DNA of 45,431 bases from NCBI GenBank assembly GCA_030055615.1, contig JASFYN010000004.1, positions 77,782 through 123,212 of the forward strand, written 5' to 3'. Source of the stretch: Methanothermobacter sp. Lineage in GTDB: Archaea; Methanobacteriota; Methanobacteria; Methanobacteriales; DSM-23052. The number at the start of each line of letters is the position of its first letter. Positions within the stretch are counted from its first letter, which is position 1. A program made the position numbers and the translations under genes. Shown here piece by piece: positions 3,616-17,624 of the stretch. The notes below the pieces were generated by a model. The model was given only the letters and a program-made list of their open reading frames with translations, made no database searches and was not told the origin of the DNA.

Positions 3616-4095
3616 ATGATGAGGCATTCATTAAGGATTGGGTTTAGTTTCGGTTTGACTTCCGCGGTAATCACAACATTAGGTTTGATGGTTGGTTTAA
3701 ATTCTGGGACGCATTCAAGGTTTGTTGTTATTGGTGGTATATTAACGATAGCGGTTGCTGACGCTCTTTCGGATGCGCTTGGTATTCATATTTCTGAGGA
3801 AGCAGAGGATAGGCACAGTACAAGGGAGATATGGGAGTCGACCATTTCCACTTTCTTGTCCAAGTTTGCTTTCGCATTAACATTTATCATTCCACTTTTA
3901 TTGTTTACATTGTCAACTGCTGTTTTAGTTAATATTATCTGGGGTTTGTTTCTTTTGGGGATTTTTAGTTTTCAAATCGCTAAGGAACAGAAAAAAGATC
4001 CTTGGAGGATAATAGCAGAACATGTATTTATAGCATTGGCAGTTATAATCATAGCACATTATGTGGGTGTTTGGATAGAATTAACATTCTGCTAG
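3616..4095 (+). CDS. VIT1/CCC1-like membrane protein
   Basis: This 159-residue integral membrane protein has about four to five hydrophobic segments. The N-terminal part, with 'GLMVGLNSGT' and 'IAVADALSDALGIHISEEAE', resembles the VIT1/CCC1 family, which moves Fe2+ or Mn2+ into compartments or out of the cytosol. It is shorter than typical VIT proteins and lacks their long cytosolic metal-binding insert, so transport is not assured. No ribosome binding site precedes ATG 3616; a TATA-like 'ttttaataa' lies about 29 bases upstream, so the transcript may be leaderless. It is transcribed divergently from the nuclease gene. Confidence 0.7.
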   Translation: MMRHSLRIGFSFGLTSAVITTLGLMVGLNSGTHSRFVVIGGILTIAVADALSDALGIHISEEAEDRHSTREIWESTISTFLSKFAFALTFIIPLLLFTLSTAVLVNIIWGLFLLGIFSFQIAKEQKKDPWRIIAEHVFIALAVIIIAHYVGVWIELTFC

Positions 4096-13493: not shown

Positions 13494-16400
13494 TTAAAGT
13501 TTTCCGCTTCCTTTGAAAATGTAGCCGGCGCCTATAAGGAGTACGATACTTACAACGCCTAAAAGTGCGTAGAATGGCATTTGACTCCCTGCTCCTCCCC
13601 TTGAGGATGCCACGACCTCAAAAACCTTACCAGTTTTCCCTGCGGACGATCCGCCACCACCTGGACCTGCACCTGGAACTACTCCAGCAGAAGCTGCTAA
13701 ACCGCCAGAAACAGTTTCAACACCCCTGCCAACCTGACCACCAATATAACCAGGACTTGATTGACCATTTCCACCAACCTGACCACCAATATAACCAGGA
13801 CTTGACTGCCCAGGAACGCTTGGAATTCCAGAACCCGGCTGTCCCGGCACTCCTGGCCCGCCCGGGACACTGATCTTCGCTCCAGTAGCCGCTGCAAACA
13901 CACCCGCAAACCTCTGAAGGCTCGCAGAATTCAATGACGAAACACTCACAACCCACTGATTAAACACAATATTACCACAAGTATGATGGCAGCAAGCAAC
14001 ACCATACTGGTTTACCATGTTTATGTATTCATTGGCAAGGTATGTTCTAGTCTCTACTGTGGGATTCCAGTAGCCTTTCCTTGCTGTTTCAAGTAACCTT
14101 GCTATGATCGAAGTTTTTGCATAAGGATTTGCATTATTGAAGAAATCTCCTAAGCCTAGGTTATAAGTGTCCATTACATATATGTTGGCTACTTGATTCC
14201 ATGTCGATTCTTTCACGAGGCTGGGGTTTGTGACCTGCCACATCCAAAGATTTTCTATGAATGAGTCCATGTATCTGGCGCCATCATAGCCGTTTTCCAT
14301 CATACCTTTTATCCAGGTTGGGTTGAAGTAACGGCTTAGAATGTCCCTGTTGAGGAATTGTGTGAATGTTTCGATTTTTGCCTCACTTCTGAGATTATTT
14401 ATATACATTGATGGTTGTGACCCTGAGACCTTTTCTATTGCGAGACTGAGACCACCTAGGTATGCTGCTACCATTGGATGTTCTAGTGCGCCGTAAAGGT
14501 TTGAACTTCTACTGAACATTGAAACATTTACTTCGCGGAGATTTTCTTTAAAGACATTTGGGATCCTCACTCCCCAGGTGTCGGTGCTGTAGGCGGCTGA
14601 CATCCTTTCAATGTAAAAGTTAGCTATTTCTTCTCTGTCCTGCCATGTGTCACTTGCTGGTATGATTTCTTGGAGTCCAGGTGAATATGCTTCTGGTTCT
14701 TCTGAAAATATCCTGAGGAGTGAAAGTTTCATGGCCTCTGATTCATTGTAACCTTCAGCTTTTAGTTTTTCATAGATTTTCTGGGAGTTGATTTTAACAT
14801 AATTTTGGGTGTCATTGGCACTTGCGGCAAGTTTAATGGCCTTGTCAAGGAGGTTTATGATGTCCATGTGAAGATCTCTGTAGATGCCAGAGGTTATGAT
14901 TGTAACGTCGATCCGTGGCCTTCCAAGGTCTGTTATGAGTTCAACATCTTTTACTCTGCCCCTTGAATCCCACACTGGTTTCACACCTAGTAGGTATAGT
15001 ATTTCTGATTCCATGACTCCTTGGTGTCTCATTGTTTCACATGCCCATAATACATATGCGATTTTCACTGGGTATTCTCCATGTTCTTCCAAGTACTCTT
15101 CTAGAAATTTGTCCACGAGTTTTTTCGCTGTTTCCCATGCAACCTTTGTTGGTATGGTTCTTGGATCGAATGGGTAGGGGTTTCTACCGGTTAGTAGGGC
15201 CTCTGGATTCTTTATAGGATCGCCCCGGGGGCCTGGGATTATGTATGCGCCCTCTAGTGCGTTAAGTAAGCTTGTTATTTCATTTTTGGATTCTTGGATC
15301 CTCTGGTTGTAGTCTATTGCAAGTTTTAAATATTCTGTGATCTTTGGTGTTGTGTTGCCAAGTATTTTGAGTTGGGCTTCTTCTGGTGTGAGATTATTGA
15401 ATATCACCTCTTTGAGTAAGAGTTTTGATGTTTCCTTGTCGATTTCATCTGGTAGCATTGCTTGTAACATTTGTATTAGTTGGTCGCCCTGCGGGACAAC
15501 ACCGAGGGTGTGGGAACCATATGGCATATAACTGGCTTTGATATCCTCTAGGCATGCTATGACTTCGTCAATAAACTTTTCAAAGTCCTTTTCTGGGTTG
15601 TATTCTAATCCTAATTCTTTTGTTTGGTTTATGATCTCTTGTTTATATGCTTCTTTTAGTGTTGTGTCTGCTGTTTCCCTGTAGAATTTGATGTTATCGT
15701 ATATGCTTGTTAGGTTGCCGTAGAGACTAGCTGGTAGGAGTACTGGTGTCATGAAATTTATGATTAGCATGTTGGCTCTTCTCTTGTCGAATATGGCCGG
15801 TGCATCCATTGGCAGCACGTGTATGATTGGGGTGTCTTGGAGTAGTATTGCACCCCAGTCTTCTGCTGAAAGTCCTGCCTGTTTTCCTGGCATCAATTCC
15901 ACTATACTGAATATTGAGAGTATTGCATCTGCATCATAGACTTTATTAATCCACCAATAGAATGCTAGTAGTTGGTGTGTCGGTGGCAATTTACCAGTAT
16001 TATATAAGGTGTTGTTGTCTTGTAACCATCCCCATACTGGTTCTGGTGCAAGTATTATGTTACCAAACTCTAACCGGGGTATAACAATATATTTTCCTGT
16101 ACTATTGGCATAGACCATGATTTTCCCGGGTGGAGGCCCCCAAACATCTATTACCTCTTTTTTCTTGCTTTCTGGGAGTTCATTGAACCATTGGAGGTAT
16201 TCTTCCTCGCTTATTAATATAACTTGGCCTTCTTTGATTCTTTTTTCTAGTTCTCCGGGAGCCCATGTGCCGATGTTGCTGCCTATCTCTGCCATTAGTT
16301 TTGCTAGTTCGTCTTCTGATGGTATTGGCTTGTCGCCAACGTTGTAGCCTCTTTCTTTCATGGCTTCTAGTAGTCTTTTTATGCTTGCTTGGGCGTTTAG

Positions 16401-17624
16401 GTAGTAGTCGATGTCAGCGCCAATATTCGCTTTACCGCCACCTTCACTATAATAGGTTATTATTATCTTTTTGAGGTTATTTGGGGTTCTTTTGAGTTTG
16501 GCCCATGATAATGTTCTGTCTGCTAACCATTCTATCTGGTATTCTATTGGTTTGTTGTAGATGACCCCTGTTTGGGGGTCTGTTTCCTTTGCACTTATTA
16601 CTATGGGTTCTATGATTCCATCCATTTCTGCGAATGCAAGTTGGTAAAGTTCGTTTGGTGGTACGCCTTGTATGCTGTTTTCCCAGTCTTGTACTGTTAT
16701 GTTAGGTGAGAATATGCGGATGCCATTTAAGACCGTTACGTTGAGCTTCTGGAGGTCTTCGATTCCCTTGGTCCAATTTTGGGAGTTGAGGGATCCGCCC
16801 CTTGAGATTACTATTGCAACGTCTATTATGGGTTTACCATCTAATAGGAAGTATTCTATTGATTTGGGGTCTCTGTAGGTGTATGTTGCCACTATTACAT
16901 TGGCTTTTTTTGCTTCGAATGTTCTTATAAGGGCGTCTAGTAGTGGCCCGTCCCTTGCCATGTCACTGTATTCTGTGGTGAGTATACCTACCGTGGGGGA
17001 AGTCTCATTATATCTTATGGTTTTGTACCATTGTAGGTAGTTTGTGAGGTTGTTGAATATTTCTGGGGCTTCTGGGTGGTATATTCCCCATAGTGGTCTT
17101 TGTATTGGCGGTTCTATTGTGGCTGTGTAATTGCAGAGGGAAACTGCTAGAAAAATTGTGAGGCGTTTTAGGTTTTCATAACATGTGTAGTTGAGGTATT
17201 TGAGTGTTTCGGTGTAGCGTGGGTCGTTGGTGTCGATGTTTTGTAGGTGTAATATTGGGGCGTAGTTTTGGCGTGATGATGGTTCTACGCAGATCATCAC
17301 ATATGATCCATTGTTTTTCGCTGTTTCGACTTTGTCTTTTAGGGCTTCCCATACTGGTGCGCTGAGGCCGCTTCTTGTCCCGAAGATTATAACGTCTCCT
17401 TTCACTTCATAGGTGAGGTTGCTGTCTGTTCTTCCGGGTTCTCCTCTTATGTTTATTTTGCCTTTGATTGCTGGGTCTTCTGCTACTTTGTTGATTAGTG
17501 CAACTTCGTTTGGACTGGAGCTTATTATGAGGATTTCTGGATTTTTTGTTGTGTTTTCTGCTGCGGCTGTTCCTATCATGTAGAATATGCTGATGCAAAG
17601 TATGAGTAATATTGTTCGTTTCAT
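13494..17624 (-). CDS. secreted CobN/BchH-like protein with C-terminal anchor
   Basis: This 1376-residue protein has a signal peptide (about 1-22), a full-length CobN/Mg-chelatase-H-like body, a Gly/Pro/Ser-rich spacer with a 15-residue tandem repeat (GQSSPGYIGGQVG twice), one C-terminal membrane helix and a short basic tail. CobN inserts cobalt into hydrogenobyrinate in the cytoplasm with CobS/CobT; secreted CobN-like proteins of methanogens have no settled role. Family landmarks are visible ('LMPGKQAGLSAEDW' near 577-590, 'VLWACETMRHQG', 'VACCHHTCGN'). The conserved 'H-G-x-x-E' loop before the first landmark is replaced by 'IFSIVE' with two residues missing, so chelatase activity is doubtful. 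GGTGGTGTGA precedes ATG 17624. No CobS/CobT-like partner lies nearby. Confidence 0.9.
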   Translation of the reverse strand: MKRTILLILCISIFYMIGTAAAENTTKNPEILIISSSPNEVALINKVAEDPAIKGKINIRGEPGRTDSNLTYEVKGDVIIFGTRSGLSAPVWEALKDKVETAKNNGSYVMICVEPSSRQNYAPILHLQNIDTNDPRYTETLKYLNYTCYENLKRLTIFLAVSLCNYTATIEPPIQRPLWGIYHPEAPEIFNNLTNYLQWYKTIRYNETSPTVGILTTEYSDMARDGPLLDALIRTFEAKKANVIVATYTYRDPKSIEYFLLDGKPIIDVAIVISRGGSLNSQNWTKGIEDLQKLNVTVLNGIRIFSPNITVQDWENSIQGVPPNELYQLAFAEMDGIIEPIVISAKETDPQTGVIYNKPIEYQIEWLADRTLSWAKLKRTPNNLKKIIITYYSEGGGKANIGADIDYYLNAQASIKRLLEAMKERGYNVGDKPIPSEDELAKLMAEIGSNIGTWAPGELEKRIKEGQVILISEEEYLQWFNELPESKKKEVIDVWGPPPGKIMVYANSTGKYIVIPRLEFGNIILAPEPVWGWLQDNNTLYNTGKLPPTHQLLAFYWWINKVYDADAILSIFSIVELMPGKQAGLSAEDWGAILLQDTPIIHVLPMDAPAIFDKRRANMLIINFMTPVLLPASLYGNLTSIYDNIKFYRETADTTLKEAYKQEIINQTKELGLEYNPEKDFEKFIDEVIACLEDIKASYMPYGSHTLGVVPQGDQLIQMLQAMLPDEIDKETSKLLLKEVIFNNLTPEEAQLKILGNTTPKITEYLKLAIDYNQRIQESKNEITSLLNALEGAYIIPGPRGDPIKNPEALLTGRNPYPFDPRTIPTKVAWETAKKLVDKFLEEYLEEHGEYPVKIAYVLWACETMRHQGVMESEILYLLGVKPVWDSRGRVKDVELITDLGRPRIDVTIITSGIYRDLHMDIINLLDKAIKLAASANDTQNYVKINSQKIYEKLKAEGYNESEAMKLSLLRIFSEEPEAYSPGLQEIIPASDTWQDREEIANFYIERMSAAYSTDTWGVRIPNVFKENLREVNVSMFSRSSNLYGALEHPMVAAYLGGLSLAIEKVSGSQPSMYINNLRSEAKIETFTQFLNRDILSRYFNPTWIKGMMENGYDGARYMDSFIENLWMWQVTNPSLVKESTWNQVANIYVMDTYNLGLGDFFNNANPYAKTSIIARLLETARKGYWNPTVETRTYLANEYINMVNQYGVACCHHTCGNIVFNQWVVSVSSLNSASLQRFAGVFAAATGAKISVPGGPGVPGQPGSGIPSVPGQSSPGYIGGQVGGNGQSSPGYIGGQVGRGVETVSGGLAASAGVVPGAGPGGGGSSAGKTGKVFEVVASSRGGAGSQMPFYALLGVVSIVLLIGAGYIFKGSGKL
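13729..13805 (-). repeat. two 32-bp direct repeats, 45-bp period, in CobN-like spacer
   Basis: Bases 13729-13760 and 13774-13805 are identical. The 45-bp period equals 15 residues of the Gly/Pro-rich spacer between the enzyme-like body and the membrane anchor. Confidence 0.9.

Follow-up and report, generated by a model that had tools for sequence, protein, structure and literature searches.

A predicted surface-anchored CobN-like protein of Methanothermobacter lacking the conserved histidine loop of class I chelatases

The window analyzed here is a stretch of 45,431 nucleotides from Methanothermobacter sp. (assembly GCA_030055615.1, contig JASFYN010000004.1, positions 77,782 to 123,212), and our subject is the gene at 13494-17624 on its minus strand, hereafter the target. 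Its open reading frame of 1376 amino acids contains no internal stop and encodes a homolog of the class I chelatases. Throughout, we compare it with HmuS of Bacteroides (9d26, 9p4s; BtuS family), a membrane-anchored, extracytoplasmic heme de-chelatase that needs no ATP. The features of the target are the following, with the basis of each in brackets.

13494-17624, minus strand: putative surface-anchored class I chelatase homolog, 1376 residues (open reading frame, PF02514, AlphaFold model and PDB matches)
17559-17624, minus strand: predicted signal peptide, residues 1-22 (hydropathy only; alike in orthologs)
14049-17201, minus strand: CobN/Mg-chelatase body, residues 142-1192 (PF02514, E 1.2e-294)
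15900-15917, minus strand: remodelled loop S570-V575 in place of H-x-G-x-H-G (HmuS 534-539), two residues deleted (alignments)
15786-15827, minus strand: residues 600-613, IIHVLPMDAPAIFD, with a new invariant His602, the Glu577 equivalent gone and two residues deleted (alignments)
14457-14489, minus strand: domain V motif ALEHPMVAAYL, residues 1046-1056, with a new invariant His1049 after Glu/Asp, replacing LDNDDxxxYL (alignments)
13971-13994, minus strand: juxtamembrane Cys motif CCHHTCGN, residues 1211-1218 (alignments)
13590-13877, minus strand: spacer rich in Gly, Pro and Ser, residues 1250-1345, containing a 39-nt repeat in two copies (composition, repeat comparison)
13515-13577, minus strand: predicted C-terminal membrane anchor, residues 1350-1370 (hydropathy)

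The match to PF02514 is near-complete, covering profile positions 2-1089 of 1090, and bears out the full CobN body that the first-pass annotation had proposed. Hydropathy likewise predicts the signal peptide and the C-terminal anchor named there, with strong hydrophobicity at the N-terminus (MKRTILLILCISIFYMIGTAAAENTT) and at residues 1350-1370. The description of the spacer as repeat-rich holds in part: a 39-nt direct repeat is present in two copies that are 95% alike (GQSSPGYIGGQVG twice), the richness is modest, and a tandem repeat finder returned no strong array in the spacer, about one third of which is Gly. The target contains 19 N-x-S/T sequons, compared with four in cytosolic CobN of similar length from sister species, which supports an extracellular location and, together with hydropathy, an anchoring outside the cytoplasm like that of HmuS. 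The Cys motif is common to most surface homologs, and its counterpart in HmuS reads SCSGFVCDN.

An AlphaFold2 model of residues 36-1230, built from an alignment of 28 sequences, reached a predicted local distance difference test score of 85.5 and a predicted template modelling (TM) score of 0.84. Foldseek ranked HmuS 9d26 first (TM 0.82/0.78) and CobN 7c6o second (TM 0.82/0.83), while VIA-align gave Z 50.4 over 1080 residues at 3.4 Å for CobN 7c6o, Z 48.9 for ChlH/BchH 4zhj and Z 42.1 over 1122 residues for HmuS 9d26. With its full-length PF02514 match and six-domain fold, the target belongs to the class I chelatase superfamily, and its fold and domain order are those of CobN (7c6o, 9uk9) and ChlH/BchH (4zhj). 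Unlike these cytosolic proteins with their ATPase partner genes, however, it is predicted to be secreted and anchored, it has lost the catalytic loop, it lies below every NCBIfam CobN or BchH equivalog cut-off (1079 vs 1619, 702 vs 1248 and 471 vs 822 bits), and it adjoins neither CobS/T nor ChlI/D. No ChlI/CobS-like gene is found among its listed neighbours, and one ChlI-like gene lies on contig C3 of the genome. The best PDB match of the single protein sequence is HmuS (5e-125), followed by ChlH (1.6e-109) and CobN (7.8e-102), whereas a profile built from many surface homologs comes nearest to ChlH. The closeness to HmuS is thus a tendency and no proof of membership.

In HmuS, His538 and His1209 coordinate a cation in the central cleft and His538 pairs with Glu577; the substitution H538A abolishes protoporphyrin IX (PPIX) formation, yet leaves heme binding unchanged (PMC12583661). 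The same study describes His538 as conserved throughout the superfamily and calls the function of the methanogen proteins unclear. Alignments to HmuS and to orthologs agree with the first-pass annotation that, in the target, the conserved His-Gly loop before PGKQ is replaced and two residues shorter. HmuS HFGTHGSLEFTPRKQ aligns with S-I-F-S-I-V-E-L-M-P-G-K-Q from residue 570, which contains neither His, so that SIFS-IVELM stands in place of H-x-G-x-H-G-T-x-E-W-L and SIFS occupies the position of the superfamily His of the HFG[TA]HG loop (HmuS His538, CobN His522). Beyond what the first-pass annotation noticed, the loop equivalent to that of Glu577 is altered as well ('D--APAIFDK' vs 'GEGxxAK'), and neither member of the HmuS His538/Glu577 pair is present. 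Domain V is changed too: the target clade reads '[DE]HPMVAAY' instead of 'LDNDDxxxY'; where HmuS has LSLDHxxEFMGG with His1209, the target has ALEHPMVAAYLGG, whose Glu-His pair is two residues out of register with Asp1208-His1209.

To place these changes, positions kept in at least 80% of 39 surface homologs were counted as conserved (n=157); the surface status of the homologs compared, that is signal peptide and anchor, was judged by hydropathy for most but not all. The target agrees with the consensus at 130 of the 157 positions and retains the SG[IL]YRDL region and the Cys motif. At 17 of them its clade has a different, fixed state, and ten of these fall among the 24 conserved columns within residues 565-630 (Fisher 1.1e-5, an indicative value since the region was chosen after the loop was known); in eight other clades the departures are not clustered in this way. 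Those of the target clade include the equivalents of HmuS Gly536, His538, Tyr568 (now His602), Tyr570 and Glu577. Outside the cleft, HmuS residues 127-374 align with the neck region of the clade, and no sequence alignment to HmuS was obtained for the head domain of the target (HmuS Met79 region). The target has no His between residues 183 and 550 and hence no equivalent of His254, a ligand in the head/neck heme site of HmuS. The Met-rich insertion of HmuS (about 120 residues) is missing too, the target having 48 residues between the aligned blocks, compared with 226 in HmuS, in a stretch that is not Met-rich.

The loop deletion recurs in orthologs from genomes G001, G003, G006, G016 and G151. 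A sequencing error or local frameshift is ruled out as its source by the same sequence in these five other genomes. The orthologs of the same-genus genomes G001 and G003 are 87-88% identical to the target and cut at contig ends, that of G002, also of the genus, is a pseudogene, the copies of G006 and G016 (another family) are broken by different lesions, and G151, from another family of the class, carries an intact ortholog at 64% identity. All six readable copies, from three families, share AILS[IV]FS[IL]V[EP]LMPGKQ, PIIHVLPxDAPAIFD and [ED]HPMVAAY, and His602 and [DE]-His1049 are invariant among them. Pairwise ratios of nonsynonymous to synonymous substitution rates (dN/dS) are 0.115-0.122 for the intact same-genus copies and 0.096-0.124 for the His-keeping paralogs and cytosolic CobN. 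As judged from these alignments and ratios, the loop loss is real and old and the clade is under purifying selection; with a ratio near 0.12, pure decay is not favoured for the intact copies. In the tree, the target clade, which was detected in only 6 of the order's 151 genomes and in one genome outside it, groups with a third-family set (L089, L091, L106) that keeps GRHGTVAW.

The loss stands out within the genome itself. Its 1.49 Mb hold seven PF02514 genes: a single cytosolic one and six large ones of the surface type, of which one is truncated by a contig end. His occupies the position of His538 in five of the six surface-type genes, the target being the sole exception; a scan of the genome contigs with the single target protein returned one locus only. 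The surface paralogs of Methanobacteriales (C3_1586, C4_2030, C1_1714, C4end and C1_1412 types) resemble the target in signal peptide, body, spacer and anchor, and most have the Cys motif, but in contrast to the target clade their H-x-G-x-H loop still has its His. Altogether, 64 of 67 other surface homologs retain it (37/39 in the first alignment, 27/28 in a wider set), as does every cytosolic homolog that has the loop region. The three exceptions are independent replacements of the catalytic His, by Met in L081:4743-9428 and L101:4145-8818 (GTMGSYEW) and by Asp in L164:3651-8528 of G151 (GVDTTYQ). A second divergent surface clade (L014:7611-11849, L082, L087, L102, L100, L091:8873-13129) shows a different pattern, with the His loop kept and the domain V and Cys motifs lost.

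The neighbours of the target, which differ in the orthologs, encode a small lipoprotein, a CARDB protein, an M24 peptidase, a CPBP protease, a VRR-NUC protein and a cupin. Inspection of these genes revealed no metal transporter or chelatase partner, and a link of the target itself to a transporter is rejected. Elsewhere in the genome, genes for DUF2162, a MotA/TolQ/ExbB protein and DUF2149 adjoin the C4_2030 surface CobN, with one opposite-strand gene between (L012:5967-7691; G000:C4:174478-176154); DUF2162 and DUF2149 occur once each. The same module directly follows a surface CobN in many relatives (L122, L123, L089/L091 (L089:15426-17208), L107, L099, L093, L111, L112), and the order CobN-DUF2162-ExbB-DUF2149 is that of hmuSTUV; HmuT has been called a putative permease in the literature, and its likeness to DUF2162 here lies in module order. 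In one related genus a surface CobN gene adjoins FeoB (L078:4920-11228, L113:5729-12058, L097:4963-11306), and in other relatives surface CobN genes stand with CbiM, a CbiN-like gene and a small exported protein (L089:3840-15257, L091:3543-19367, L123:5930-12340). This CbiM/CbiN-like cluster takes in the sister clade of the target. The G151 ortholog and a sister-clade gene of G040 both adjoin an epimerase-like and an O-antigen-polymerase-like gene (L159:7991-10098 and L106:5038-7321).

Since the DUF2162-ExbB-DUF2149 module adjoins surface CobN here and in relatives, it is plausible that an energised partner not based on ATP exists. The first-pass annotation had held that no ATP-driven CobS/CobT partner can act outside the cell and that a secreted copy should hence be a binding protein; this argument has to be given up, since HmuS is anchored, ATP-independent and catalytic, and secretion does not imply a binding-only role. 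It had also reasoned that, if secreted homologs generally kept the loop and a partner existed, the target would be only a diverged chelatase. With His in 64 of 67 other surface homologs and a candidate motor present, the general argument indeed fails, and the special case of the target survives.

Known systems supply both precedents and limits. Like the target, HmuS combines a whole-chain class I chelatase fold with anchoring outside the cytoplasm, the lack of a cytosolic ATPase and a Cys pair that ends the body, and the order of its gene context recurs in the genome of the target, although at another place. We do not file the target as HmuS, because the domain III pair, the His1209 register, His254 and the Met-rich insertion are all missing; moreover, neither HmuY nor HmuR was seen in its context. 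In Pseudomonas aeruginosa, PA1922-PA1925 comprise a Zur-regulated receptor, a CobN-like protein, ExbD and DUF2149 (PMC9431628). This set, tied to metal starvation, resembles the archaeal one at the gene level in joining CobN-like, ExbB/D-type and DUF2149 proteins, yet it belongs to a zinc regulon in a bacterium with an outer membrane. Bacteroides fragilis lacking both BtuS proteins is impaired in heme iron use while free PPIX formation persists (PMC6460266), which is a precedent for a non-catalytic role. BtuS-like proteins of Methanosarcina barkeri were reported to be elevated in some iron and sulfur conditions, with metalloporphyrin salvage suggested (PMC10846266), so that salvage by archaeal CobN-like proteins has been proposed before. 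Our searches found no literature dealing directly with surface chelatases in Methanothermobacter.

With moderate confidence, we read the target as a pseudo-(de)chelatase of the cell surface, which would capture a metallotetrapyrrole or a metal on behalf of a surface salvage system. This reading builds on the observed architecture and fold, on the loss and remodelling shared across the clade, on purifying selection, and on the paralogs and motor present in the genome. The target would keep the class I fold and central cleft without the domain III His/Glu pair, whose His is the one HmuS needs for stripping the metal; loss of this His disfavours an ordinary chelatase reaction. A metallotetrapyrrole or its metal would be captured at the cell surface, possibly bound in the cleft via His1049 or His602, and passed on, perhaps through the juxtamembrane Cys motif, within a system that would also comprise the loop-intact paralogs and the single DUF2162-ExbB-DUF2149 motor resembling HmuTUV, presumably shared among the surface CobN-like proteins. 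The proposal of the first-pass annotation that the protein binds rather than chelates remains our preferred reading for this copy and now draws on the missing His538 equivalent, the H538A precedent and the departures at the metal site, no longer on secretion. Three points weigh against our view. The target itself adjoins neither motor, FeoB nor CbiM; heme at the head/neck site is not expected, as the His254 equivalent is absent; and, with three of seven orthologs disrupted (G002, G006, G016), its function is dispensable.

These disruptions, which arose through different lesions, and the narrow distribution of the clade would fit a redundant paralog on its way out, whose loss of activity is tolerated because its task falls to the other surface CobN-like proteins. 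We consider this unlikely, given a dN/dS near 0.12 in every pair of intact copies and remodelled residues that stay unchanged at about 35% divergence, also in a fourth intact copy from another family. The invariance of His602 and [DE]-His1049, co-occurring with loop loss, could instead point to a diverged active enzyme with a metal site rebuilt on His602, His1049 with Glu/Asp1048 and the conserved His550, perhaps for another metal or ring (F430, cobamide). Strong purifying selection and an Asp/Glu-His pair reminiscent of Asp1208-His1209 of HmuS agree with this; yet the target lacks the only residue that HmuS has been shown to require, together with its partner Glu577, which leaves such an enzyme a possible but rather improbable alternative. 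That the rebuilt site, His602 with Glu/Asp1048-His1049, performs a different extracellular demetallation driven by the ExbB-type motor, such as removal of nickel from F430 or cobalt from cobamides, appears doubtful. Abundant sequons, the Gly/Pro/Ser spacer and the epimerase-like and O-antigen-polymerase-like neighbours noted above would also suit a surface protein with a structural or adhesive role, for which the fold would serve as a scaffold and which would bind neither tetrapyrrole nor metal; set against these, the agreement at 130 of 157 conserved positions, the retained SG[IL]YRDL region and Cys motif, and the links of relatives to metal transporters make a mere scaffold quite improbable.

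The target clade amounts to a natural experiment in the loss of H538: it is fixed in three families and under selection, and His-keeping paralogs occur in the same cell. It would allow binding to be told apart from catalysis in class I chelatases. It would furthermore offer a concrete test route for tetrapyrrole metal salvage at the methanogen surface, where DUF2162-ExbB-DUF2149 beside some surface CobN genes and FeoB or CbiM beside others point to an energised metal salvage.

Some smaller observations concern the genome and its relatives. The cytosolic PF02514 gene is a 450-residue C-terminal fragment behind a ChlI-like ATPase gene (L011:14889-17047) and the only cytosolic CobN found in the genome; sister species carry a gene of 1189 residues, and the fragment may reflect a deletion or an assembly fault. 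The last 131 bases of contig C4 (L010:12207-12337) match the 3' part of the target gene at 99% identity, which may stem from gene conversion or from a repeat-driven assembly end. Three families with small genomes have an expanded set of PF02514 genes, with up to about 12 matches listed for a genome (some of them split), compared with one or two in most other genomes of the order. Within the window, about 9 kb from the target, 3616-4095 encodes a short protein of the VIT family of iron/manganese transporters.

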